Below are positions 31,998 to 50,457 of a stretch of 64,000 nucleotides of DNA, in pieces; the stretch's first letter is position 1, and each line of letters begins with the position of its first letter. The notes beneath the pieces are model-generated. The model was not told the origin of the DNA. It searched no databases and saw only the letters and a program-made list of their open reading frames with translations. The stretch lies in assembly GCF_032716425.1 (NCBI RefSeq), contig NZ_CP090419.1, positions 917,001 through 981,000 of the forward strand, given 5' to 3'. A program made the position numbers and the translations under genes. The DNA is from Pseudoalteromonas sp. N1230-9 (GTDB lineage: Bacteria; Pseudomonadota; Gammaproteobacteria; Enterobacterales; Alteromonadaceae).

Positions 31998-32990
31998 ATG
32001 AATAATTCTAACCCAGTAATTATTAAACGTGGTCGCCGCTCAGCAAAGAGTGGAAAACACAGTGGTGCTTGGAAAGTAGCCTTTGCTGATTTCACATTAG
32101 CGATGATGGCGTTCTTCATGGTGCTATGGATCATGGCTATTACCAATGAGCAAGAGCGAAAAGATATTGCTCATTATATGCGTACACATTCAATCTTTGA
32201 TGGTAGTCCCGCATTATTTGAACCAGGCAATAGCCCTTTTCCTGTCGACTTAGGGGGATCTCCTTCTGTTGTTGACCATAAAGCATCAAATCGCTTGCCA
32301 CCTGATAATCCTCGCCCAGGCATGAGTGAATATTTAAAAGTACCTAAAGGCGATCATGCGCCTTTAGCGGGTAAAGGCGATAAGCTTAATTCAGTGATAG
32401 ACAGTGAATTTGCAGCATCGAGTGAGCTGAGTTTATTGCTAAGTAGTTTTCAAGATTTAGCCAAAGAAGAGCTATTACAGAACAATCTGCACGTTGAAAA
32501 AGTCAGTTCTGGGCTCAGAGTGATTATTCAAGATGATAAAAATCATCAAATGTTTGCGCGTTCAGAGCAAACGATGTCGCCATTTTTTGAAGATTTATTT
32601 TTACACTTAGGTGGCCTGTTCAGAAGTATTGAAAACAAAATCATTATTTCGGGTCACAGTGATGCCAGTGCATTCAAAGGAACTCAGTCGAATAACTGGG
32701 ACTTATCAGGTGCACGTGCATTTCAAGCAAGAAAAATCATGGCCGCAGGTGGGATGCCAACAAACCAAGTTATGCAAGTTAATGCTTTTTCTTCTAATAG
32801 ACCGATTAATCAAAAAGATAGATTTGCGAGTGAAAATAGACGTGTCGAAATCCTGATTCTGACCAAAAAGGCAGAATCAGAGTTAGAGGCGTTATTCGCT
32901 GAGGATAACATCAATAACCCTGTTAAAAAGGCCGCCAGTGCTGCAACAGCAAATCAGCCCGTATTACGCTCTCAGGAGTTATATGAATAA
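31998..32990 (+). CDS. motB: MotB stator protein (lateral, LafU-type)
   Basis: Peptidoglycan-anchored stator subunit, 330 aa. The single transmembrane helix (about 27-50) starts with WKVAFADFTLAMMAFFMVLW; Asp31 is the ion-carrying aspartate. The plug/linker region follows, then the OmpA-like peptidoglycan-binding domain (IIISGHSDASAFKG..., NWDLSGARAFQARKIMAAGG, FASENRRVEILI). It ends over the start of the PilZ gene by 8 bases. Confidence 0.95.
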   Translation: MNNSNPVIIKRGRRSAKSGKHSGAWKVAFADFTLAMMAFFMVLWIMAITNEQERKDIAHYMRTHSIFDGSPALFEPGNSPFPVDLGGSPSVVDHKASNRLPPDNPRPGMSEYLKVPKGDHAPLAGKGDKLNSVIDSEFAASSELSLLLSSFQDLAKEELLQNNLHVEKVSSGLRVIIQDDKNHQMFARSEQTMSPFFEDLFLHLGGLFRSIENKIIISGHSDASAFKGTQSNNWDLSGARAFQARKIMAAGGMPTNQVMQVNAFSSNRPINQKDRFASENRRVEILILTKKAESELEALFAEDNINNPVKKAASAATANQPVLRSQELYE

Positions 32991-33372
32991 GTCAGAAGAG
33001 TCGAAACGAACTCACCCTCGCTGGCCTCTTTGTGAGCAAGATACTCAACTTCCTGCGGCAATGCAGCAAGGTGGCATTGCCGTGAAGCTGCATCATTCAT
33101 GGTTGTTTAACTACTTTATATGCCGTGCTGTGGTTAAAGATATTAGCGTAGGTGGGGCTGGAATGTTGGTGCCTAATGAGCATAAGTTACCGGGCAAGGT
33201 CCGTGTAGCATTTAATGATAGTAATACTTTTATTGGCACAATTCGTTATACGCACCCCGTTACAGAGAAATTGAACTTTGTTGGTATTGAATGGCAAAAG
33301 AAAGATGAATTAAGGCGTATAGAGTTAGTTGCTGAGTTACAAAAGCAGGCTAATTACACAACGACTTTATAG
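32983..33372 (+). CDS. PilZ domain protein inside the lateral flagellar operon
   Basis: 129 aa from the ATG at 32983, which has AGGAGTT upstream; a longer frame upstream overlaps motB and is not used. It carries a c-di-GMP-binding signature: RTHPR (RxxxR, residues ~9-13) and DISVGGAG (DxSxxG) about 50 residues later. It lies between the stator genes and fliM, overlapping motB, and so is likely made in fixed ratio with them. By analogy with YcgR/MotI-type proteins it may act on the stator or switch when c-di-GMP is high; that role is inference. It lacks the N-terminal YcgR domain. Confidence 0.82.
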   Translation: MNKSEESKRTHPRWPLCEQDTQLPAAMQQGGIAVKLHHSWLFNYFICRAVVKDISVGGAGMLVPNEHKLPGKVRVAFNDSNTFIGTIRYTHPVTEKLNFVGIEWQKKDELRRIELVAELQKQANYTTTL

Positions 33373-37562: not shown

Positions 37563-39641
37563 ATGACTTTGAATTGGCGTAGTTTAACCCGACCTTACAC
37601 CGCTATACCGGTATTGCTGTTAGCTGTTTTATCTATGGTTATTTTGCCATTACCCGCATGGCTACTGGATACCTTATTCACCTTCAATATTGTACTTTCT
37701 GTGATCGTGTTATTGGTTGCTGTTTCAAGTTCAAAGCCGCTCGATTTTTCTGTTTTCCCAACCATTCTGTTGGTTGCAACCTTAATGCGTCTTACCCTAA
37801 ATATCGCATCGACGAGGGTTGTTTTGCTACATGGTCATGAAGGCTCTGATGTGGCAGGGCGAGTCATTCAAGCATTTGGTGAAGTGGTGATTGGTGGCAA
37901 CTATGTTGTCGGTATCGTCGTATTCATTATCCTAATGGTGATTAACTTTGTCGTAATCACCAAAGGTGGCGAGCGTATCTCTGAAGTTGCAGCACGTTTT
38001 ACTCTTGATGCAATGCCGGGCAAGCAAATGGCAATTGATGCTGACTTAAATGCGGGATTAATTGGCCCAGAACAAGCTAAAGAACGACGTGCCACCGTGG
38101 CACAAGAAGCTGATTTCTATGGTTCAATGGATGGTGCTTCTAAGTTTGTACGCGGTGATGCAGTAGCCGGTCTGATCATCTTAGTGATCAACTTACTGGG
38201 TGGTGTCAGTATCGGGGTATTTCAGCATGACTTAAGCATGGCTGAAGCATTTCAACGTTTCGCTCTTTTAACAATTGGTGACGGCTTAGTTGCGCAAGTC
38301 CCTTCATTACTGCTGGCTGTTGCTGCAGCAATTATTGTTACCAGAATGAACGATGAAGGTGACATGAGTGAAGCGGTGGGAAGCCAGTTACTTGCCTCAC
38401 CAAGAGTTATTCTAACCGCCGCCTTAGTCATGTTGGTGTTAGGTATTGTGCCAGGTATGCCAAGCCTTGCGTTTATTGGCTTTGCATTGCCTCTTTTGTA
38501 TGTTGCTTGGCGACTTTACAAAAAGACACCACAAGGGCAGTTAGAAGAAGCGCAAAGCATTACAGATACAATTGCCCAAGAACAAGCAGCTCTGAGCTGG
38601 CAAGATATTCCGCATGTCGATACTTTAAGCGTTGAGCTTGGTTTTCGTTTAGTTTATTTGGCCGATAAGGAAAAAGGCGAGGAACTAGCAAAAACAATAC
38701 GTGGTATGCGTAAGAGCTTATCTGAACAACTTGGTTTCTTGTTACCTGAAATCAGAGTTAAAGATAATCTAAATCTTAATCCTCAAGAATATAAAATCAA
38801 ACTAGCGGGAGTGGCCGTTGCGTCTGCTCAACTGAATGCCAAGCAGCTACTAGCTTTAAACACCGGCGATACTTACGGCCAGTTAGATGGTGAACTAACG
38901 ACAGATCCGGCTTATGGCTTGGAAGCGGTGTGGGTTGATGAGCAAAATAAAGCCAAGGCACTGAATATGGGTTATTCAGTTGTCGACTTAGCCACTGTGA
39001 TCGCAACGCATATGGGCAAAGTGATAAAAGAGCATTTAGATGAGCTGTTCAGTTATGAGGATATTCAAAACTTACACGAAAGATTAAAGGCTGTATCACC
39101 TAGTTTGGCTGATGCGCTTGAAAAGTCTTTACCAATTAACCTGCAACTAAAAGTGATGAGAATGCTACTTAAGGAGCATGTTGCGATTGGTGATATCGTG
39201 ACTATTGCAGGCACTTTAGTTGACAGTATTGAAGTCACAAAAGACCCGATTCTACTTGCTGCCGATGTACGCTGTGCACTAAAACGTGTGTTAGTAAAAC
39301 AAGTGATGGGCAGTCGTGACGAATTAGCTGCTTATAGCTTAGATGAAAAACTAGAGCAAACGATGCAGAGTTCGTTAGAGCAAGCAATGCAAGCAGGGAA
39401 GGTAGCATTGGATAGTTTTGCTGTAGACCCTAATTTACTTGGCCAGTTTCAACGAGCCATGCCTGTGATTGCTGATGAAATGAAATCTCAAGGTGTTAAC
39501 CCTGTGTTGATTGTTATTCCGCAGCTAAGACCGTTACTGGCGCGCTATGCGCGTTCATTTACGAAGGGAGGTTTATCTGTACTTTCTTATAACGAAGTGC
39601 CTGATAACATTAAAGTTAGTATTATCGGTTCCCTAGGATAG
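37563..39641 (+). CDS. flhA: FlhA export gate protein
   Basis: Large export gate component, 692 aa. The first ~330 residues hold about eight membrane segments with conserved FHIPEP-type blocks (FPTILLVATLMRLTLNIASTRVVLLHGHEGSDVAGRVI; RFTLDAMPGKQMAIDADLNAGLI; FYGSMDGASKFVRGDAVAGLIILVINLLGG). The C-terminal cytoplasmic ring domain follows. Last gene of the long run from 28197; a c-di-GMP riboswitch leader begins about 130 bases downstream. Confidence 0.97.
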   Translation: MTLNWRSLTRPYTAIPVLLLAVLSMVILPLPAWLLDTLFTFNIVLSVIVLLVAVSSSKPLDFSVFPTILLVATLMRLTLNIASTRVVLLHGHEGSDVAGRVIQAFGEVVIGGNYVVGIVVFIILMVINFVVITKGGERISEVAARFTLDAMPGKQMAIDADLNAGLIGPEQAKERRATVAQEADFYGSMDGASKFVRGDAVAGLIILVINLLGGVSIGVFQHDLSMAEAFQRFALLTIGDGLVAQVPSLLLAVAAAIIVTRMNDEGDMSEAVGSQLLASPRVILTAALVMLVLGIVPGMPSLAFIGFALPLLYVAWRLYKKTPQGQLEEAQSITDTIAQEQAALSWQDIPHVDTLSVELGFRLVYLADKEKGEELAKTIRGMRKSLSEQLGFLLPEIRVKDNLNLNPQEYKIKLAGVAVASAQLNAKQLLALNTGDTYGQLDGELTTDPAYGLEAVWVDEQNKAKALNMGYSVVDLATVIATHMGKVIKEHLDELFSYEDIQNLHERLKAVSPSLADALEKSLPINLQLKVMRMLLKEHVAIGDIVTIAGTLVDSIEVTKDPILLAADVRCALKRVLVKQVMGSRDELAAYSLDEKLEQTMQSSLEQAMQAGKVALDSFAVDPNLLGQFQRAMPVIADEMKSQGVNPVLIVIPQLRPLLARYARSFTKGGLSVLSYNEVPDNIKVSIIGSLG

Positions 39642-39682: not shown

Positions 39683-39710
39683 TTGCTTTTTGGTTTTTTT
39701 TATCTATAAT
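39683..39710 (+). promoter_or_regulatory. candidate sigma-70 promoter of motY-lafK-fliEFGHIJ
   Basis: TTGCTT (39683-39688), a 16-base spacer and TATAAT (39705-39710). It would start transcription about 50 bases upstream of the riboswitch. A second TATAAT at 39741-39746 lies within an inverted repeat but has no good -35. Confidence 0.5.
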
Positions 39711-39768: not shown

Positions 39769-39865
39769 CTAAGACAATTAAATGGCAAACTACGCCGAAA
39801 GGGTAGGACGCAAAGCTTCCAGTCTAAAACCGCAAGGTCATGATAGTGGGGTTACATTAACTTAG
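39769..39865 (+). promoter_or_regulatory. GEMM / cyclic-di-GMP-I riboswitch upstream of motY-lafK
   Basis: Matches the GEMM-I consensus through the whole core: GGCAAAC (39784-39790), P2 stem CTAC...GTAG capped by a GAAA tetraloop (39797-39800), the highly conserved GACGCAAAGC (39807-39816), TTCC, TCTAAAACC, a P3 hairpin with GCAA loop, then ATAG and GGGGTTAC (39848-39855). The closing P1 pairs CTAAG (39769-39773) with CTTAG (39861-39865), with further pairing inside. About 92 bases separate it from the motY ATG. The leader following P1 shows AGCGG...CCGCT enclosing a small GCCT-CTTC-AGGC hairpin but no clear T-run, so the readout (termination, translation or stability) is not obvious. In this family c-di-GMP binding decides expression of the downstream gene. 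Confidence 0.93.
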
Positions 39866-39957
39866 CGGCACGTCTATTCGCCTCTTCAGGCAATTTGTTC
39901 CGCTTATTATACACGTTAAAGCTCTTAATTGGGCTGTTTATGATAATTGGAATACGA

Positions 39958-40842
39958 ATGAATAACTCACATCAGCTTGTTAAGGCAACTTTTTTAATTG
40001 TTGTAGGCATTATAACTGCTTATGCACTGCCTGTGAAAGCTGAACGCGTAATTACCCAAAATTATGAGCAGGCAACATGGTATGTCAGTGGCGATGCTTT
40101 TTATTGCCAGCTTAGCCAGAAACTAGATAGTTATGCACAATTATCGATTATCAGCGAGCCTTCAGAGCCACAGCATCTGGATTTTAAGTGGCTGTTAACT
40201 GAGCGTGATATCACGGATGTACAGGTATTTGCTCGTACAGCAGATTGGCAAGATAAACGAGCGATTGCCCCTTCTATACAATTCTTTTCAGCCAATATTG
40301 AACAGCAACAGGTTACGTTTAACAAAGGTGTTGCACCTATTTTAAGCGCCATTAAGCAGGGCTACTGGTTAGATACAATCGTCGGGTTTGGTGATGAGCA
40401 GCTCAGACTGACTTTTCCTACAACTCATAGCGATAACGCGATTGATCAATATCAGCAATGCCGTGAAAAATTAGCACCTTTGTCTTGGCGACAAGCGAGA
40501 GATTATGAAATTAATTTTGACTCAGGAGAGCGTGTTGTTAAACGTGCCGCAGACCTGAGTTATTTAGAGAAACTAGTTCGTTATATTCAACTCGATCCTA
40601 AAGTTAAGAAAGTCATGATTGATGGACATACAGACAATGTAGGTTCTCCGCTTGCCAATCGTTTGTTATCGAAAGAAAGAGCAGATGATGTGGCATCCCG
40701 ACTTATCGAGTATGGGATCGATGCAAAGTTAATTGAAATCAGGGCTCACGGAGGACGCTATCCCGTGGCAAGCAATTCAGATTCGAACGGTCAGTCGTCA
40801 AATAGACGCGTCTTAATTCGTCTATTTCGTCAAAAAAGCTAA
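39958..40842 (+). CDS. motY: MotY-like flagellar motor protein (lateral)
   Basis: Periplasmic T-ring/stator-anchoring protein, 294 aa from the ATG at 39958, which gives a standard signal peptide (MNNSHQLVKATFLIVVGII...ending PVKA-ER). Longer TTG/ATG starts upstream (39895, 39940) would add a second hydrophobic stretch. The N-terminal MotY domain is followed by an OmpA-like peptidoglycan-binding domain (about residues 190-290: KVMIDGHTDNVGSPLANRLLSKERADDVASRLIEYGI, SSNRRVLIRL). First gene after the riboswitch, 15 bases before lafK, an order also seen in Vibrio lateral clusters. Confidence 0.9.
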   Translation: MNNSHQLVKATFLIVVGIITAYALPVKAERVITQNYEQATWYVSGDAFYCQLSQKLDSYAQLSIISEPSEPQHLDFKWLLTERDITDVQVFARTADWQDKRAIAPSIQFFSANIEQQQVTFNKGVAPILSAIKQGYWLDTIVGFGDEQLRLTFPTTHSDNAIDQYQQCREKLAPLSWRQARDYEINFDSGERVVKRAADLSYLEKLVRYIQLDPKVKKVMIDGHTDNVGSPLANRLLSKERADDVASRLIEYGIDAKLIEIRAHGGRYPVASNSDSNGQSSNRRVLIRLFRQKS

Positions 40843-40857: not shown

Positions 40858-42168
40858 ATGGATCAGAAACATCTACTATGGCTTGCGCCAGAACAACCAT
40901 CACGTGAAATTGAATTGGCGATCAATGATGAGCAGTATCAACTTCTGTACACAGATTCGATCCCCGATGCTATTGGTTATTGTTTGAGTTATCAGCCTGA
41001 ACTGGTATTAATTGATGCTCAACAAGCACAAATGAACTTGGTTGACTTGGTAAAACTAGTTAAAAGAACTCATCAAGGTGGACAAATTATCACGCTTGTG
41101 GAATCGAACCAAGGTGAGCTTGCTTCACAGTCACTTAATAATGGTGCTGTCGACTTTTTACTTAAACCGTTTTTTGCTGATCAACTAAAACTAACCATCC
41201 GCAACGCTGATTCTATGAAGCATGGTGTGAGTGACTTAATTGCTGTGTCACTGAAATCACAGCAAGTGCTGAGACTTGCCAATCGTGCAGCACAAACATC
41301 TGCAAGCGTACTGATTATGGGTGAGTCGGGCACAGGTAAAGAAAAGTTAGCTAACTTCATTCATCAATCTTCTCCACGTGCAGATAAGCCATTTATTGCG
41401 GTTAACTGCGCAGCTATTCCAGAAAATATGCTGGAGTCTATGTTATTTGGTTATAACAAAGGTGCATTTACCGGTGCGGTAGCACAGCAAGCGGGTAAGT
41501 TTGAGCTTGCAAATGGTGGCACTATTTTACTGGATGAGATAACCGAACTGCCTTTAGAGCTGCAAGCCAAATTACTTCGTGTCCTACAGGAGCGAGAGGT
41601 TGAGCGATTAGGCAGTCATCAACGCATTAAACTCGACATTCGTGTGATTGCAGCATGCAATAAGCCGCTGCGTGAGCAAGTAGAGAAAGGCCTTTTTCGT
41701 GAAGACTTATTTTACCGCTTAGATGTATTGCCGTTAATGTGGCCAGCATTACGTGACCGAAGTGACGATATTTTACCATTAGCAAAGTATTTTATTGCTA
41801 AATACGGAGATGAGAAGTTTCACTTTAGTCAACAGGCAGAGCAGTTAATGTATAGCTATCACTGGCCAGGTAATGTTCGTGAGCTGGAAAATGTAGTGCA
41901 AAGGGCATTAGTGATGGCTCGCGGTGTTGAAATCCAAGCGGCAGATCTAAACCTACCCGAAAACGTTAAAGCACTAACGACAACCAGTGCGTCACAGTTA
42001 AAACATAGCAAGAAACAAGCTGAATTTGATTATATTTATGATTTACTTAGCCGTTTCAAAGGACACAGAACCCAAACCGCAGAGGCACTCGGTGTGAGTA
42101 CCCGAGCTCTTCGATACAAAATAGCCGCCATGCGTGAGTATGGCATGGATATAGACGCAATCGCTTAA
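40858..42168 (+). CDS. lafK: LafK sigma-54-dependent activator of lateral flagellar genes
   Basis: Master regulator, 436 aa from the ATG at 40858 (GAGAAGG upstream; a GTG four codons earlier is less likely). Residues 1-120 form a receiver-like domain in which Asp remains at LVLIDA but the usual N-terminal acidic pair is absent (LLWLAPEQ), so phosphorylation is doubtful. The AAA+ domain has Walker A GESGTGKE at 155-162, the sigma-54 contact loop GAFTGA at 202-207, LLDEITELP, and [10 protein letters not shown] Fis-type helix-turn-helix ([16 protein letters not shown]) ends the protein. It should act on the sigma-54 promoters at 14998 and 28124. Confidence 0.93.
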
Positions 42169-42184: not shown

Positions 42185-42508
42185 ATGTCACCTATTGAAA
42201 GTCAACGCCTTCTGCTTGGAAAAATGACTGATATGCAGCAACTAGCTGCGGCAGAGACCATTGCGCCTGCAGCAAGTAAATACCAAGATGCAGCAATTAG
42301 TACTGAATTCAAAACAGTTGTTCGCGCGGTTAATGAGCAACAAAATATCTCATCGCAAATGATGCATGCGGTAGATACGGGGCAAACAGATGATGTTGTT
42401 GGGGCGATGGTCGCCAGTCAAAAAGCGAGCCTAAGCTTCTCAATGTTAATGGAAGTACGCAATAAACTACTTAATGGCATTGATGATGTCATGCGTATGT
42501 CACTGTAG
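42185..42508 (+). CDS. fliE: FliE MS-ring/rod junction protein
   Basis: Adapter between MS ring and rod, 107 aa. The C-terminal half carries the family signature TDDVVGAMVASQKASLSFSMLMEVRNKLLNGIDDVMRM. First structural gene downstream of lafK after 16 bases, and so probably controlled with it by the riboswitch. Confidence 0.94.
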   Translation: MSPIESQRLLLGKMTDMQQLAAAETIAPAASKYQDAAISTEFKTVVRAVNEQQNISSQMMHAVDTGQTDDVVGAMVASQKASLSFSMLMEVRNKLLNGIDDVMRMSL

Positions 42509-42516
42509 AGGTTGTT

Positions 42517-44244
42517 ATGAAAGGCGAATTAACTAAAGCTGTACCGCCGATGTCTGGGGAGACAAACCTACGTGAAAAAGTCGTAAACTTCTCAAATAAA
42601 ATAAACTTTTCAAATAAAAGCCATGATAGAAATGTCGCGACAATCGCTTTGTTAGCGACGTTAGTAGCGGCAACTATCGTTGTTATTTTGTGGACATCAG
42701 CAAAGAACTACGTGCCGCTCTATGGAAACCAAGAAAGTTACGATAAAGCCAATATTTTAGAAATATTGGATAAAGAACAAATTGTATTTCGCATTGATAA
42801 CGACACAGGCAACATTTTAGTTCCTCAAGAAAAACTAGCAGACGCACGGATCACTCTAGCGGCACGTGGTATTAAAGCTTCAATGCCTGAGGGCGTTGAT
42901 AACCTCAGTGCTAAAGTATCGATGGGCACAAGCCAGTTTATGGAATCGATGCAATATCAACATGCTTTGGAGGGAGAACTTGCCCGCACCATTATTAATA
43001 TGCAAGGTGTTCGCAATGCGCGAGTACATTTAGCAATACCAAAGCGTAGCTTATTTATAGGCAGGGAAGAGCAAAAATCAGCTGCATCTGTGATGGTTGA
43101 TTTAGCGCCAGGGCATGAACTAAAACCTGAACAAGTAGAAGCTATTATTTCACTCATCATTGGCTCAGTACCTGGTTTAAACCCGCGAGATGTATCAGTA
43201 GTCGATCAGCGCGGAAAGTTACTGTCGGGTGATTTATTTGATACCACTCCCGTTGGTAAAGAAAGTGATAAGAAGCTCGCTTTTATCGAAAAGGTCGAAC
43301 GTAACATAGAGCAACGCGCTGAAATTATGTTACTGCCTATTTTAGGTGAAGGAAATTTTCGAATTCAGGTTTCAACAGATGTTGATTTTAGCGTTGTTGA
43401 AGAAACACGTGAAGCGGTAGACCCACAAGGGGTGTTAAAGCAAGAATTGGTTAAATCAGATTCTCGACAAGACCAATTTGCCGGTGGTATTCCAGGTTCA
43501 CTGGCTAATCAACCTCCACTGCCAGATCAAGAAGGTGAAGAGGCTGAAAATGAGCGAGTATCTGAGCGCAGTGAAAGTAGCCGTGAATATGAAAATGGCC
43601 GCTCTGTTACCCATACTCGTTTTGAAGTTGGACGCTTAAGCTCAATGAGCGTATCTGTACTTGTTAATGAACAAGCCGCTGCCACAGCTGAAGGTTGGAG
43701 CCAAGAAGGCCTAAATTCTTTAGGCGAAATGGTTAAAACAGCTACCGGTTTTAATGAGCAGCGTGGCGATCAGTTCAATATCACCAGTTTTGCATTTGTT
43801 GAAGCAAAACCTTTTGTACCGTCTGACGGATTACAATGGTGGCAAATGCCTGAAATTCGAGAGTATGCTCGTTACATTTTCGGTACTTTTATTAGCTTAA
43901 TGCTTATTTTCTTTGCGGTAAGACCGCTGGTAAATCATTTGATTAAAGGCAAAACAACAGCTTCACCACCAAGCGAAAATGAGCAAGAAAAATTAGCTGC
44001 TGCTAAAAGCGATGCTTATGAAAGACAAAGTACACCTCTGGATGGCGCACTTGAGCGAGATAGCAAAAATGAACAGCCTGAGCAGGAAGGTGAAAATATT
44101 GCATTGCCTAAGATAGGCAGTGATTTTGAAGAGCAAATAGCACACATGCAGTTATTAGCAAGCCGAGAAACCGAGCGTGTAACCTCTGTGATTAAATATT
44201 GGGTAGAGCAAGGAGTTGAAGTTGAGTCAAGTAAATCAAGATAA
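42517..44244 (+). CDS. fliF: FliF MS-ring protein
   Basis: MS-ring subunit, 575 aa. Two membrane segments (about 45-65 and 448-470) flank the large periplasmic part with ring-building motifs (MQYQHALEGELARTIINMQGVRNARVHLAIPKRSLF; VEAIISLIIGSVPGLNPRDVSVVDQRGKLLS). The C-terminus (FEEQIAHMQLLASRETERVTSVIKYWVEQG) is the FliG-binding tail. It overlaps the start of fliG. Confidence 0.96.
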   Translation: MKGELTKAVPPMSGETNLREKVVNFSNKINFSNKSHDRNVATIALLATLVAATIVVILWTSAKNYVPLYGNQESYDKANILEILDKEQIVFRIDNDTGNILVPQEKLADARITLAARGIKASMPEGVDNLSAKVSMGTSQFMESMQYQHALEGELARTIINMQGVRNARVHLAIPKRSLFIGREEQKSAASVMVDLAPGHELKPEQVEAIISLIIGSVPGLNPRDVSVVDQRGKLLSGDLFDTTPVGKESDKKLAFIEKVERNIEQRAEIMLLPILGEGNFRIQVSTDVDFSVVEETREAVDPQGVLKQELVKSDSRQDQFAGGIPGSLANQPPLPDQEGEEAENERVSERSESSREYENGRSVTHTRFEVGRLSSMSVSVLVNEQAAATAEGWSQEGLNSLGEMVKTATGFNEQRGDQFNITSFAFVEAKPFVPSDGLQWWQMPEIREYARYIFGTFISLMLIFFAVRPLVNHLIKGKTTASPPSENEQEKLAAAKSDAYERQSTPLDGALERDSKNEQPEQEGENIALPKIGSDFEEQIAHMQLLASRETERVTSVIKYWVEQGVEVESSKSR

Positions 44245-45253
44245 TGTGACAATGTCAGCACCTGCTCGTGCGTCACTCGATAGAGCTGCTATTTTACTGC
44301 TCAGTATGGGCGAAGAAAATGCAGCAAGCGTGATCCGTAAACTCGGTCGCCGTGAGGTACAGGCAATCTCAGAGCGAATGGCCAGTATTTCTAACATTAC
44401 AAAAAATGATGTAGCTGACACGCTCACCAGTTTTTTCGATTGTTACCGTAACGAAAGTGGGGTTAATGGCGCATCAAGGCTGTATCTTGAAAGAGCACTT
44501 GATAAAGCCGTTGGACGTAAGCTCGCACGTGGCATGTTAGATGATATTTATGGTGGCGCGATGAGTGATGATCTGCGTCGTTTAGAGTGGATCCCACCTG
44601 AGCTAATTGTACGTTTCTTAGAGCATGAACATGTGCAAATGCAAGCGCTGTTTTTAGCGTTTTTACCCGCCGATCAAGCTGCTGCTGTCATTGCATTGTT
44701 TCCTGAAGCAAAGCACGAAGACCTGTTATACCGTATTGCCAGCTTACGAGAAGTCAGTGAGCATGTGATGGATGATATTCGATTAACCATTGAAGCTTGT
44801 ATTGAATTTGTTGGCAAGCAAGTCGGCTCTCAGGTAAATGGGGTTGATAAAGTTGCTGATATTATGAGTCGATATAACGGCAATAAAAGCCAAATTATTG
44901 AAGTTATTAAAAAGCATGATTTACAAGTGGCAGATGCAGTACAAGAGCGTATGTATGACTTTGCCAGTTTATTACTGCAAAGTGATGAGACCCTTTCTCA
45001 ATTAATGAACGATGTACCTGACGAGCTTTGGTTGATGGCATTAAAAGGTGCAGATGAAAAAATTGTTGCGCGCCTTTTGGGGGCATTACCAAAACGCTTA
45101 GCGCAAGTTTATCAACAGCAGTTAGAAGCAACAACATCACAGCCGGTGAGTAAAGTGGATGCTGCACGTCGTGAAATCATGAGCATTGTACGTGATATGA
45201 GCAAGCGAGAAGAAATCACTTATCAGCTATACGAAGAAGAGACCGCGGGTTAA
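44222..45253 (+). CDS. fliG: FliG motor switch protein (lateral)
   Basis: C-ring rotor protein that meets MotA. 343 aa from a TTG at 44222 with AGGAG six bases upstream, overlapping fliF by 23 bases; an ATG at 44252 has no ribosome site. N-terminal ARASLDRAAILLLSMGEENAASVIRKLGRREVQAISERMA, middle EHVQMQALFLAFLPADQAAAVIALFPEAKHEDLLYRIA with the EHPQ-like EHVQ motif, and the C-terminal torque helix region (DELWLMALKGADEKIVARLLGALPKRLAQVYQQQLE) are present. Confidence 0.94.
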   Translation: MSQVNQDNVTMSAPARASLDRAAILLLSMGEENAASVIRKLGRREVQAISERMASISNITKNDVADTLTSFFDCYRNESGVNGASRLYLERALDKAVGRKLARGMLDDIYGGAMSDDLRRLEWIPPELIVRFLEHEHVQMQALFLAFLPADQAAAVIALFPEAKHEDLLYRIASLREVSEHVMDDIRLTIEACIEFVGKQVGSQVNGVDKVADIMSRYNGNKSQIIEVIKKHDLQVADAVQERMYDFASLLLQSDETLSQLMNDVPDELWLMALKGADEKIVARLLGALPKRLAQVYQQQLEATTSQPVSKVDAARREIMSIVRDMSKREEITYQLYEEETAG

Positions 45254-45258
45254 GTGCT

Positions 45259-45891
45259 ATGCAAGCTTATCAGTTTCCAACATTAACAAAAGAACAGCAG
45301 CACCAGAGTGTTCAGCAGCGTATTGACGCAGCTGAACAGGCTGCTTGGCAAAAAGGCTTTGATGAGGGATTAAAGCAAGGTCAAGCGGCGCTACAAGCTG
45401 ATATAGAAAAGCGGGTCTCGCAGCAAGCTGAACTATTATTACAAGAGCGTGAACTAGAATTAAAGCAGCAAATGCTGGCACAATTCGATGTGCTAACACA
45501 GCAAACAAAGCAACAACTTAATCTGCTGTCTAATGAAGTACTAAAAGATCTTAGTGTGTTAGTTGCGAAGGTCGCGGAGCAGGTAATTGCCTGTGAGTTA
45601 ACTTTGCAGCCTAATTGCTTAATTGATTTAGTCGAACAGGCCCTCAATTTATTAGCAGGGCGAGATGATGTTAACGAAATTGTGTTTTCTAGCGCTGATG
45701 CGGCTCTTTTTGACGATTCAAGCTTTGATAAAATACCCCTAACAGTGAGTTTTGAACCTCAACTTGCAAGTGGCAGCGTAAAGCTTATTTCTAGTGAGCA
45801 AAGCCATAGCTTATCTCTTTCAGAGCGTTTAGATGCTGTACTTACTGATATAACGCCAGCCCTTCTTAACGGTCAAGTTATTCATGAGTAA
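45259..45891 (+). CDS. fliH: FliH export ATPase regulator
   Basis: Stator-like regulator of FliI, 210 aa. The N-terminal AAEQAAWQKGFDEGLKQGQAAL (FliH GxxxG-like repeat region) leads into a Gln/Glu-rich coiled coil (about residues 45-95) and a C-terminal domain. Its stop overlaps the fliI start by 8 bases. Confidence 0.9.
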   Translation: MQAYQFPTLTKEQQHQSVQQRIDAAEQAAWQKGFDEGLKQGQAALQADIEKRVSQQAELLLQERELELKQQMLAQFDVLTQQTKQQLNLLSNEVLKDLSVLVAKVAEQVIACELTLQPNCLIDLVEQALNLLAGRDDVNEIVFSSADAALFDDSSFDKIPLTVSFEPQLASGSVKLISSEQSHSLSLSERLDAVLTDITPALLNGQVIHE

Positions 45892-47239
45892 TACCGTGTT
45901 ATCTCATGTTCTTAGTACTGCGACAAAACAGCTGACAGCCCCGCCTTTAATTCAAAGTTACGGTCGTCTTGTAAGAGTCAATGGTATGACATTAACAGCT
46001 GTCGGCGGGCAGTTTTTAATGGCAAAAAAATACCAAGTCGAGAGCATTGATGGTACGTGGAATGATGCTCAAGTGATTGGTTTTGATGATACCAAAGCGT
46101 TCTTGATGCTACTAAATAAAGCAGATGGTTTATACGCTGGTGCGAGAGTCAGAGCTGTTGCTGATACACAAGCGATAAAGATTGATATGTCTTTACTCGG
46201 AAGAGTAATTGATGCACAAATGCAACCGATAGACGATTTAGGTAACTTAAGTCGTGTTGATTTAGGAGCTGATTGCGTTCTAAAAAAACAACCCTCTTTA
46301 AATCCGTTGCAGCGTAAAGGGGTGAGCGAACCCTTGGATGTGGGAGTCCGCTCAATAAACGGCCTTTTTACCGTTGGAAAAGGCCAGCGTTTAGGGCTTT
46401 TTGCAGGCTCAGGTGTCGGTAAAAGTAAGCTACTGGCCATGATGACTCGCTTTACCAGTGCAGACGTTGTAATTGTGTCTTTAGTTGGTGAGCGTGGCTG
46501 GGAAGTCAAAGAATTTATAGAGCAAAGTCTTGGCCCAGAAGGGCTCAAAAAGGCCATCGTAATTGCTTCCCCTGCTGATGATTCACCGCTTTTGCGAGCA
46601 AAAGCGGCGGAGTTAAGTCATCAATTGGCTGCTTTTTATCGCGACCAAGATTTAAATGTTCTGTTATTGATGGACTCTTTAACTCGCTATGCGCAAGCAC
46701 AGCGAGAAATAGGCCTTGCGGTTGGCGAGTTGCCTGTCGCTAAGGGGTATCCGCCATCGGTATTTAGTAAGCTGACTCAGTTAGTTGAAAGCTCTGGAAA
46801 CAGCGAAAAAAGTAAAGGCTCAATGACTGCCATCTACACGGTATTAGCAGAAGGGGACGACCAGCAAGATCCGATTGCGGACAATGCGCGGGCTATTTTA
46901 GATGGCCACATTGTATTGGACCGAACGCTTGCAGAAAAAGGTCATTATCCAGCTATTAATATTGGCGCATCTATAAGTCGTGTTATGCCTAACATTGTCT
47001 CCTCTGAGCAACTTGCCTTTTGTTATAAGCTTAAAAAGCTCTATAGTCGATACCTACAAGTGCATGAATTAATACCGCTTGGTGCCTACCAGGCAGGGAA
47101 AGATGCTGAATTGGATTTAGCTGTACACTTGTATCCACAAATAGAAGCATTCTTATGCCAATCATTAAATGAAAAAGCAGATTTTGCGACTACAAATCAA
47201 CAGCTTTCGCAGTTAATAGGAAAACATGATGCTAGATAA
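45884..47239 (+). CDS. fliI: FliI flagellar export ATPase
   Basis: Hexameric ATPase of the export apparatus, 451 aa. Walker A GSGVGKSK, Walker B LLLMDSLTRYAQAQREI, and the GELPVAKGYPPSVFSKLTQLVE segment are diagnostic of FliI and the F1-beta-like family. It overlaps fliH upstream and fliJ downstream. Confidence 0.96.
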   Translation: MSNTVLSHVLSTATKQLTAPPLIQSYGRLVRVNGMTLTAVGGQFLMAKKYQVESIDGTWNDAQVIGFDDTKAFLMLLNKADGLYAGARVRAVADTQAIKIDMSLLGRVIDAQMQPIDDLGNLSRVDLGADCVLKKQPSLNPLQRKGVSEPLDVGVRSINGLFTVGKGQRLGLFAGSGVGKSKLLAMMTRFTSADVVIVSLVGERGWEVKEFIEQSLGPEGLKKAIVIASPADDSPLLRAKAAELSHQLAAFYRDQDLNVLLLMDSLTRYAQAQREIGLAVGELPVAKGYPPSVFSKLTQLVESSGNSEKSKGSMTAIYTVLAEGDDQQDPIADNARAILDGHIVLDRTLAEKGHYPAINIGASISRVMPNIVSSEQLAFCYKLKKLYSRYLQVHELIPLGAYQAGKDAELDLAVHLYPQIEAFLCQSLNEKADFATTNQQLSQLIGKHDAR

Positions 47240-47639
47240 GTTTAAAGATATGCAGCAAGAAAAGCTTGATAACATGCTCTCTGAGCAGGCTGTTTTGAAA
47301 CAGCAAACCGAGGTAGAACAACAGCGATTAGCCCAATTAAAGCAATTTATCGACGATATGCAAACAAACAACCAGATGGGTAATGCAATTGGTTTGCAAA
47401 ATTTAGCAGGCATGAAACACATTCTACATGGGTTATCGCAGCAGCAGGCCGAACGAGTCACGCAACTACAAGGCGATCAATCACGTCAACAACATGCTTG
47501 CATCCAACAACTTTCATTTACGAAGGGGTTAGAGGGCGTCATTGCTAAAAAAGCACATCAGATCAAGCAAAAACAGGCTCGTCAGCATCAGAATCAACTT
47601 GATGAGTTAGTCGCGCATGCAGCCGTTCGTCGTAGTTAA
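47226..47639 (+). CDS. fliJ: FliJ export chaperone-escort protein
   Basis: Central stalk-like component of the FliI ring, 137 aa, almost wholly coiled coil and Gln/Lys-rich. The sequence itself is weakly conserved, so the call rests on size, helical pattern and location overlapping the end of fliI. Last gene of the flagellar cluster; a short hairpin (47647-47664) without a T-run follows. Confidence 0.85.
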   Translation: MMLDKFKDMQQEKLDNMLSEQAVLKQQTEVEQQRLAQLKQFIDDMQTNNQMGNAIGLQNLAGMKHILHGLSQQQAERVTQLQGDQSRQQHACIQQLSFTKGLEGVIAKKAHQIKQKQARQHQNQLDELVAHAAVRRS

Positions 47640-47903: not shown

Positions 47904-48936
47904 GTGATCGATACAGTCAATGCAAGTCAGCAAGATAAAGCACGGTTTTTACGTGTATTTGCATTCATTGGGGCCGTTACCTCTTTTTTTATGTCTATTA
48001 CTAGTTACTTAGATGGCTACACCGTTCTTAGTACTATGCTAGTGGTTGCAGTGGGTGTATTTGTCAGTCCGTTTATTATTAAAAATCGTGACCATACAAT
48101 TGCTATTCTGATGCTTTACACCTTGTATGCGATTATGTGCTTTTTGATAGTGTCTGGCGGTAATCATGGTACAGGTCCTTTATGGTTATTTATTGCTTCG
48201 CCTGTGACCTTTTTTATTCGTGGCTTAAAGCGCGGAGCGATAGATTTAATCGTACTTGCTTGTGTGATTTCAACTCTCTTTTATTACACGGACAAATTGG
48301 GTTATTACAGTTATCCAAGTCATTACTTTCCTACACGAGTTATGCTGTGTTTCTCAATTTTATGCATTCTTGGTGCGTTCTATGAGTATTACCGAAATAA
48401 GTATAGTCGTGAGCTCATAGCGCAACTTAAAATAAACAAAAAGCTGGCCCGCCATGACCGATTTATCAAACCGACATTATGCGACGGAGTGTATGCAAAG
48501 TCGTTGCTTTGAAGAGGGGGCCGTGTTTCTTTTAATTGATGTTGATAACTTTAAACAAGTGAATGACACCTATGGTCACCAAGTGGGTGACGAAGTGCTT
48601 ATCTTTATTGCCGATATCTTTAAGAAAGTGTGTACCGATGAAGACATTAATTCACGTTGGGGTGGTGAAGAGTTTTTAATTGTAATCCCAAAAGGGCATG
48701 AACTTCGCGCACGAAACGTTGCTGATGAAATACACACACACCTAGCAAATAATACATTTAAAAGTGGTGAGCATTCCTTCAATGTGAGTTTAAGTATTGG
48801 TTTGTATCAGCGAACCCATATGGACAGTATTGATCAGTGCTTAAATATCGCTGATAAGCGATTATACAAAGCAAAATCTCAAGGTAAAAACCAAACAGTT
48901 GCTGAGCCAGATTTGGCCAAACACGAGCCAGCCTAA
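47904..48936 (+). pseudogene. membrane diguanylate cyclase disrupted by a frameshift
   Basis: Two overlapping frames make up one GGDEF protein. Bases 47904-48512 (GTG start) encode five to six membrane segments and the beginning of the linker helix, ending correctly at KLARHD before running off-frame to a stop. From 48454 another frame continues with TDLSNRHYATECM, the DVDNFKQVNDTYGHQVGDEVL block, the active site RWGGEEF and ADKRLYKAKSQGKN to 48936. The family normally reads RxDPxTxLxNR at the junction. A deletion of 8 bases between two ATGACC copies (original CAT GAC CCN ATG ACC GAT) would explain it. The GGDEF part has its own ATG at 48454 and might be made alone, but it lacks an obvious ribosome site. 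Confidence 0.85.
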
Positions 48937-49028: not shown

Positions 49029-49103
49029 GTGAGTCAAGATAAGGAATATCATCAACATCTTCTTCGCGTTAAGTTCACAGCCTGTTTTGAGGCTCATTTT
49101 TAA
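49029..49103 (+). CDS. possible 24-codon leader ORF, copy 1
   Basis: GTG-started frame of 24 codons (begins MSQDKEYHQHLL) whose TAA overlaps the ATG of the 49103 gene (TAATG). The same frame and overlap recur in copy 2 at 49847, with one residue changed (Arg to Pro). It could couple translation of the downstream gene, or be the remnant of an older coding end. No convincing ribosome site is seen. Confidence 0.3.
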   Translation: MSQDKEYHQHLLRVKFTACFEAHF

Positions 49104-49645
49104 TGTCACTCTTAGAATCATTTAAGAAGTTGGGTAACTATTTTGGTGCATACAAGGTACACCTATGCCCCGAAGTTAAAGGCCAAGTGAGTGAAAATGG
49201 TGAACCTTTAATTAACGCAAAAATAGAAAGAAGGCTTCGTTTCTCTGATGGGAAATATGTAGAAGATTTTGCCTATACCGATGATAAAGGCGGCTTTTCT
49301 TTTCCAGAAGCCAATATGCGCTCTAATCAACCCGCAGTGCCATTTGCAGAAATTTTTACTTCTCAGTCACTTCTTTTAAAACATAAAAGTAAAGAGTACT
49401 GCTTATGGGGGGCAAGATTGTCAGGTTTTAGTTTTCGTGAAGAATATGCCAAGAAGCTAGGACGTTTAGTTGCAGATATTTCTAGTGATAAAGTACTTTT
49501 TAAATTTGAGAACACTAAGGGTGAAGATTATAAATTTGAAGCTGTAAGTATTGGGCGTTGGAATGAAGACTTCGAGATTATAGATTTAGATTCTTATTTT
49601 GATTTATCGGACATTGAATCTGATGATGAAGAGTGTCAGTTATAA
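49103..49645 (+). CDS. unknown protein, duplicated (paralogue A)
   Basis: 180 aa, no signal peptide or membrane segment. Residues about 22-75 look like a carboxypeptidase-regulatory/transthyretin-like beta fold: PEVKGQVSENGEPLINAKIERR, then TDDKGGFSFPEA. The C-terminal half holds a conserved EYAKKLGRLVADIS and YKFEAVSIGRWNEDFEIIDLDSYFD, ending in an acidic tail. It is about 90 percent identical to the next gene over the first 88 residues by eye, but only about half identical after that. I do not recognise a function; its repeated location ahead of a lipase suggests a partner or protective role. Confidence 0.75.
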   Translation: MSLLESFKKLGNYFGAYKVHLCPEVKGQVSENGEPLINAKIERRLRFSDGKYVEDFAYTDDKGGFSFPEANMRSNQPAVPFAEIFTSQSLLLKHKSKEYCLWGARLSGFSFREEYAKKLGRLVADISSDKVLFKFENTKGEDYKFEAVSIGRWNEDFEIIDLDSYFDLSDIESDDEECQL

Positions 49646-49846: not shown

Positions 49847-49921
49847 GTGAGTCAAGATAAGGAATATCATCAACATCTTCTTCCCGTTAAGTTCACAGCC
49901 TGTTTTGAGGCTCATTTTTAA
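49847..49921 (+). CDS. possible 24-codon leader ORF, copy 2
   Basis: Same GTG-started frame as at 49029, ending in a TAA that overlaps the ATG at 49921. Upstream sequence is almost identical between copies, so conservation alone does not prove coding. Confidence 0.3.
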   Translation: MSQDKEYHQHLLPVKFTACFEAHF

Positions 49922-50457
49922 TGTCACTCTTAGAATCATTTAAGAAGTTGGGTAACTATTTTGGTGCATACAAGGTACACCTATGCCCCGAAGTCAAAGG
50001 CCAAGTTAGTGAAAATGGCAAACCTTTAATTAACGCAAAAATAGAAAGGCTACTTTGTTTCTCTGACGGAAAATATGTAGAAAACTATGTATATACTGAT
50101 GACAAAGGCGGCTTTTCTTTTCCAGAAGCCAATATTCGCTCTAACCAACCAGCTGTGCCATTTGCAGAGCTTTTCACATCTCAAATTATAACGCTTATTT
50201 ATGAGGGCACTAAATATATTTTATGGACATCTAGGCTTTCAAATATTAAATATCGTCATGAATACGCTAAAAAATTAAGCTGTTTAAGAGCAGACTTATC
50301 AGATGAGGAGGTCTTTTTTCATTTTAAAAATAATCAAGTTCCGGGTTATAAATTTCGAGCTGCGAGTATAGCGCGTTGGGATGAAGACTTTGAAGTTATA
50401 GATGTAGATTCTTATCTTGGTATATCGGATATTGAAACGGATGACGAAGACCATTAA
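49921..50457 (+). CDS. unknown protein, duplicated (paralogue B)
   Basis: 178 aa, paralogue of the 49103 gene. It keeps the N-terminal MSLLESFKKLGNYFGAYKVHLCPEVKGQV and TDDKGGFSFPEA blocks and the C-terminal RWDEDFEVIDVDSYL with acidic tail, but the region from residue 89 to 150 has many replacements (e.g. IITLIYEGTKYILWTSRLS in place of SLLLKHKSKEYCLWGARLS). It is 21 bases from the lipase start and likely co-transcribed with it. Function unknown. Confidence 0.77.
   Translation: MSLLESFKKLGNYFGAYKVHLCPEVKGQVSENGKPLINAKIERLLCFSDGKYVENYVYTDDKGGFSFPEANIRSNQPAVPFAELFTSQIITLIYEGTKYILWTSRLSNIKYRHEYAKKLSCLRADLSDEEVFFHFKNNQVPGYKFRAASIARWDEDFEVIDVDSYLGISDIETDDEDH

Follow-up and report, generated by a model that had tools for sequence, protein, structure and literature searches.

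The window, by which we mean the whole 64-kb stretch of Pseudoalteromonas DNA analysed here, carries flagellar genes on both sides of a 316-base gap between the end of flhA and the start of a motY-like gene, and a riboswitch aptamer sits in this gap (Table 1). The gene order motY-lafK-fliEFGHIJ, which the earlier note had claimed for the downstream side, is borne out by domain matches for all of the genes, that of FliJ falling under the Pfam cut-off (24.8 vs 28.4). The lafK-like product has the receiver, sigma-54 activator and Fis domains of a LafK-type protein, its gene adjoins the lateral motY, and an activator role is predicted for it. No LafK model appeared among the 25 listed of 44 NCBIfam matches. 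Upstream, in domain scans that covered part of the open reading frames of the window, genes match flagellin, a FliD-like protein, FliS, FliL, a sigma factor, MotA, MotB, FlgM, FlgN and FlgA. The label "lateral" is putative and was chosen for the motY-lafK order and for the resemblance to lateral clusters elsewhere.

Table 1. Features of the lateral motY leader and the adjoining genes; positions are those of the window.
Feature	Position	Strand	Basis or remark
flhA (upstream gene)	37563-39641	+	FHIPEP and FlhA models
Promoter-like pair: TTGCTT 39683-39688, 16-base spacer, TATAAT 39705-39710	39683-39710	+	9/9 genus leaders
P1, 5' strand CUAAG	39769-39773	+	alignment; pairs with CUUAG 39861-39865
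c-di-GMP-I (GEMM-I) aptamer	39774-39859	+	RF01051, 70 bits
Inner P1, UUAA with UUAA	39778-39781 with 39857-39860	+	alignment
P1, 3' strand CUUAG	39861-39865	+	last two bases common to the alternative stem
Alternative stem, 5' strand AGCGG, excludes P1	39864-39868	+	pairs with 39900-39904
Alternative stem, 3' strand CCGCU	39900-39904	+	five core pairs in 13/13 rows
Hairpin that would hide the motY ribosome site: UUCC 39898-39901 opposite GGAA 39949-39952, reaching into the start codon	39893-39959	+	predicted fold
motY-like gene (lateral)	39958-40842	+	MotY_N and OmpA domains
lafK-like gene	40858-42168	+	response regulator, sigma-54 activator, Fis HTH
fliE, fliF, fliG, fliH, fliI, fliJ	42185-47639	+	domain matches; fliI is a FliI-type ATPase

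The promoter-like pair lies upstream of the aptamer. Its -35 element is poor and the pair is missing from the list of the consensus scan. It is kept in all nine leaders of the genus (9/9), as TTGCTT or TTTGCA, 16 bases, and TATAAT or TATAGT. Sigma-54-like sites were considered as proof of LafK targets and rejected, there being 51 in the window with up to two mismatches against 47 expected, which is no enrichment. Two such two-mismatch sites precede open reading frames (14999 before 15080 and 28124 before 28197), and chance gives an equal number.

Several other genes of the window deserve mention. A PilZ-like open reading frame (32938-33372, plus strand) follows motAB in the same place as filZ in Pseudoalteromonas SM9913, and scores 21.4 against a Pfam cut-off of 22.5. 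Behind fliJ there is a gene for a diguanylate cyclase with MASE and GGDEF domains (47904-48936, plus strand), which is split in two frames. The same gene is one open frame in two near relatives (L195 and L196); no open reading frame with a GGDEF-like motif was found in the stretches L197-L202. Further on are two neighbouring DUF6795 genes (49103-49645 and 49921-50457, plus strand) and then a class 3 lipase gene.

The aptamer between flhA and motY

RF01051, the c-di-GMP-I (GEMM-I) aptamer, is the single Rfam match at the gathering threshold in the 64-kb window. The match covers the full model (1-87) at 70.0 bits, twice the gathering score of 35, with an E-value of 1.2e-11. The earlier note had assigned the element to this class from its letters and proposed this very search, and a score so far above threshold upholds the assignment. 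The core parts it had listed are all found: GGCAAAC at 39784, a GAAA-capped P2, GACGCAAAGC, a GCAA loop on P3, GGGGTTAC and a closing P1. The span it had given, 39769 to 39865, runs from one outer end of P1 to the other. We have no doubt about the class of the element and are close to certain that the aptamer is real.

The closing helix P1 is present in the flanks of the Rfam match, formed by CUAAG with CUUAG and by UUAA with UUAA. It is nearly invariant among the aligned leaders and therefore draws no support from covariation; L040 and L041 lack the outermost pair. The ligand contacts and the interhelical pair were located by transferring the Vc1/Vc2 numbering, as given in passages of PMC4744006 for A47, C92 and the interhelical positions, onto the window sequence. 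The equivalents of the Vc2 contacts G20, A47 and C92 are G at 39784, A at 39812 and C at 39855, and the interhelical pair is C at 39809 with G at 39846. The equivalents of A47 and C92 are invariant in the 13 aligned leaders, and that of G20 is kept in 11/13.

Distribution and descent of the element

The survey of other lateral-flagella genomes suggested in the earlier note finds the same placement many times over. A GEMM aptamer lies directly upstream of motY in 46 lateral motY loci belonging to four families. In the family of the window (f1), all 35 lateral loci found have the aptamer (35/35). They comprise 30 of 395 genomes with a lateral motY at an E-value of 1e-48 or better and five further genomes of the genus; the 30/30 aptamers of the larger group come from separate scans of 4, 3, 8 and 15 loci. 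Within the genus, LafK orthologues of at least 72% identity occur in 9/99 genomes, and 9/9 of these carry RF01051 at 1.07 to 1.09 kb before lafK. This match at lafK is the sole one reported genome-wide, under stricter filters, in G020, G032, G046, G049 and G082. Lateral genes occur in 4/11 genomes of family f2 and in 4/5 genomes of family f15, with the aptamer in 4/4 cases in each family.

Family f6 has the aptamer in 3 of the 37 lateral loci examined (3/34 in g23 and 0/3 in g45), and family f21 in none of five loci with lafK (0/5). From genome features we provisionally take f21 to be Vibrio-like and f6 to be Shewanella-like. On that assumption, the aptamer is absent from 5/5 Vibrio-like and 34/37 Shewanella-like loci examined. 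The g23 count of 34 joins 26 and 8 scanned loci. That group has 39 lateral motY matches, nine of them without a locus; of these nine, the scan took in one (G269, as L102). An order-wide MotY profile search of 394 genomes gave at least 30 lateral loci among the matches listed.

A degenerate GEMM element was looked for in these negative loci with relaxed Rfam scans (E up to 1), and none appeared in 18 loci or in a further 9. Among the 18 are L105, L107 and L110, which, like L111, are motY relatives without lafK and are left out of all counts. One text-pattern match to GEMM, in L161, was without Rfam support and was rejected as a chance match. No GEMM text pattern appeared where f2 and f15 genomes have a second motY (16 loci), nor in 28/28 stretches, at 21 loci, around LafK paralogues of the genus (about 45-48% identity).

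Could the aptamer be a relic, or a chance resemblance, that has lost its switching? The fold downstream of it is not uniform between genera, which speaks for a relic. Against this stand the 70 bits, the conserved contact bases described above, and the persistence of the aptamer at 46 loci while MotY diverged to about 30% identity; among six other MotY proteins aligned, identity to that of the window is 27-50%. We therefore consider a relic very improbable.

The descent of the operon was followed in a LafK tree of 79 rows, made up of 44 with GEMM, 31 without, and 4 of an outgroup. L094, which has a GEMM element and is without lafK in its stretch, and L167 are in the count of 46 and outside the tree. 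The GEMM label changes once on this tree, which is the minimum; shuffles give 26 changes on average. The GEMM split has a support of 74/89, and 76% of bootstrap trees show it as a single split. The deeper branching order is tentative, and long branches meet between the two negative groups; the single change fits one gain or one loss alike. The three positive f6 loci nest inside the f1 clade, where they group with G607 and G574 at 100/97. The one-change fit and the nesting of the f6 positives inside the window's family together point to a joint transfer, and operon and switch have probably moved together.

Exclusive pairings and proposed output of the leader

Thirteen aligned leaders follow one layout. 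UAAG and UUAA, in the 5' strand of P1, are followed by the aptamer, CAUUAACUUAG and AGYGR; a spacer that contains local hairpins then leads to UUYYGCU and to a GGRR-type ribosome site. AGYGR and YYGCU form an alternative stem. Since the bases AG are common to P1 and to this stem, both helices cannot form together. With one outer pair included, the alternative stem is 92.2% paired over the 13 rows, as compared to 32 to 65% when it is slid; the outer pair fails in 6/12. One pair goes from G-C to A-U in five rows (AGUGA/UCGCU), and two others have G-U variants. The five exchange rows are one clade, so this covariation may be a single event. Outside the 13-row alignment, L183 and L185 also keep AGCGG and CCGCU.

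The ribosome site of motY falls in a predicted hairpin with a z of -3.88, only 1/200 shuffles being as stable. The corresponding values in relatives are -4.64 in L035, -2.45 in L036, +0.66 in L039, and about -2.2 in L037, L038, L040 and L041, with L037, L038 and L040 being identical in this stretch. Over eight distinct rows, pairing in the helix around UUYC and GGAA amounts to 94.6%, and this Shine-Dalgarno helix does no better than shuffled columns, which reach it in 218/500 cases on pairing and 189/500 on covariation.

Our preferred reading, to which we give a probability of roughly 0.6, is that the c-di-GMP-I riboswitch in the 5' leader of motY-lafK-fliEFGHIJ is a translational OFF switch. 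On binding c-di-GMP, P1 would close and take CUUAG, and CCGCU would then lose its partner AGCGG. The freed UUCC would pair with the Shine-Dalgarno GGAA to give the long hairpin, which would leave motY untranslated and perhaps, by coupling, lafK behind it as well. At low c-di-GMP, the AGCGG/CCGCU stem would hold the anti-Shine-Dalgarno strand, and the site would stay open. In Vibrio parahaemolyticus, as the introduction of PMC10304486 states, LafK is an activator of lateral flagellar genes, and so the switch would hold back the organelle at high c-di-GMP. We infer that the ligand acts on the leader in the cell, that it does so in this sense, and that lafK serves as the gate of the whole organelle.

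Folding with one helix or the other forced gives the contrast this model calls for in the window, where the Shine-Dalgarno is 9% unpaired with P1 and 76% unpaired with the alternative stem. The two forced folds are within 0.3 kcal/mol, as expected of a poised switch. The contrast is present in 8 of 16 leaders (the window, L034, L035, L036, L037, L038, L040 and L171), among which several are near-copies and L035 opens to 43% only. It is partial in L138 (1/16) and missing in 7/16 (L039, L041, L137, L172, L085, L183 and L185). A control with shuffled spacers covered 8 of the 16 leaders. Shuffles reached the contrast in 4/60 cases for the window and in 0/60 for each of L036, L037 and L171; the figures were 10/60 for L138, 13/60 for L039, 12/60 for L041 and 50/60 for L172. 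Since other genera have other downstream folds, we do not claim one mechanism for all 46 loci.

When the leader of the window is folded freely, neither P1 nor the alternative stem appears (mean pair probabilities of 0.01 and 0.02), and the Shine-Dalgarno is 9% unpaired without ligand. A switch at equilibrium would thus rest OFF, and the OFF model needs folding during transcription. A site hidden without ligand would suit an ON switch, in which c-di-GMP opens the hairpin and raises motY-lafK expression. High c-di-GMP generally opposes flagella, which counts against an ON switch. Moreover, when P1, the helix that the ligand should stabilise, is forced, the site is closed in the window, L034-L038, L040, L041 and L171. 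Both ON and OFF switches are known in the GEMM-I class, as passages of PMC9262584 state. On this evidence an ON switch in the window appears decidedly improbable.

A transcriptional output from the same aptamer is the other rival to a translational OFF switch. In that case ligand binding would leave the leader open to Rho, or to a weak intrinsic terminator at 39920-39935, and transcription of the operon would end ahead of motY. The window has one terminator-like stem, at that position, where 0.4 are expected in shuffles, and U-rich stretches after hairpins can be seen by eye in the leaders of some relatives (e.g., L085, g12 genus). The stem itself argues the other way, having 5 pairs, of which 3 are G-C, and a tail, GUUUAUGAUA, that lacks a run of U. 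The corresponding stem of L037 is made up of 3 pairs. The same bases also form the top of the ribosome-site hairpin. Being both weak and overlapping with that hairpin, the terminator is kept as a rival only, and we think a transcriptional output unlikely, less so than an ON switch.

Ligand identity and relation to known systems

The base before GCAAAC, position 20, helps to tell apart two ligands of the GEMM family. An A in this position is the mark of the cGAMP (GEMM-Ib) aptamers, and the window has G. So do the others among the 42/46 loci with G, while 4/46 lateral-operon aptamers have A (L085, L138, L183 and L185). According to passages of the respective papers, an A-to-G change of nucleotide 20 converts a cGAMP switch into one for c-di-GMP (PMC6456294), and in the Clostridioides difficile element Cd1 this nucleotide is said to contribute to selectivity without acting as a strict filter (PMC9262584). 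The G favours c-di-GMP, and this is the ligand to be expected in the window. The c-di-GMP-I-GGC model, RF03167, is the best Rfam match for 5/46 aptamers (L089, L092, L094, L173 and L189), whereas the window matches RF01051 instead.

A broader reading would join the ligand to the descent of the operon. The switch would be the ancestral c-di-GMP checkpoint of one lateral-flagella lineage, acting at the motY ribosome site and passed on, or transferred between families, with the master operon. The Vibrio-like and most of the Shewanella-like lineages would have lost it or never acquired it and would use other controls, and the few members with A20 (4/46) would have drifted towards cGAMP. We offer this tentatively and think it unlikely.

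GEMM-I aptamers bind their ligand in the low-nanomolar range or tighter. The passages available from the work on Pseudoalteromonas SM9913 (PMC10304486) place the rapid swarming period at a time when c-di-GMP stays under FilZ's Kd of 230 nM, report that c-di-GMP rose continuously during swarming, and describe FilZ as working in the absence of c-di-GMP. The timing of rapid swarming favours the OFF model, and the continuous rise counts against it. Given such tight binding, c-di-GMP at just under 230 nM in SM9913 might already fill the switch, which also speaks against the OFF model. The word riboswitch is absent from the main text of that paper.

A conserved RNA gate on the lateral activator operon would give a direct link to c-di-GMP, one that is testable in a single leader. 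The lateral organelle would be controllable apart from the polar flagellum, and a signalling element would travel with the machine it controls. Found in the same place in many relatives, the switch may thus act as an inherent brake on swarming over surfaces.

Control of lateral flagella by c-di-GMP has been described, in passages of PMC10304486 and PMC9061725, through the protein receptors FilZ, FlrA2 and MotL. The effect in S. putrefaciens is ascribed to the latter two (PMC9061725). Our guess is that such proteins take the place of the RNA switch in lineages that lack it.

The window shares with the riboswitches of RF01051 the full-length match, the P1-P2-P3 architecture, the GNRA loop and the contact bases. 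It differs from them in the downstream platform and in the operon, and its binding of c-di-GMP is predicted. Cd1, as described in passages of PMC9262584, is likewise a GEMM-I element upstream of a flagellar operon, and has the OFF sense that we propose for the window. However, Cd1 is described as a transcriptional switch, whereas we propose a translational output, before the gene of a lateral sigma-54 activator. Vc1 of Vibrio cholerae is of the same class and precedes gbpA, according to parts of PMC4744006; its target is an adhesin, as opposed to flagella for the element of the window. The only other RF01051 match of our genome (G000:C1:3566456-3566546, minus strand) precedes an open reading frame with a GbpA_2 domain (L003:5774-6349, minus strand), and in this it resembles Vc1.

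Putative Shewanella GEMM elements at flgB and fliE are mentioned in PMC2659441, citing Weinberg 2007. They adjoin flagellar operons in a gammaproteobacterium; the passage names flgB and fliE, and not lafK or lateral flagella. With these and Cd1 on record, a GEMM element beside a flagellar operon is in itself nothing new. Eleven riboswitches were counted in an Aeromonas genome, their placement not being given in the portion of PMC2556355 that mentions them, and one of the 11 is possibly a lateral motY element. Searches of the open-licence PMC literature brought up no account of a riboswitch ahead of lafK or of a lateral motY. As far as that literature goes, what is new here is the fixed place of the element before the lateral lafK operon across several families, together with a concrete model of how it would switch.
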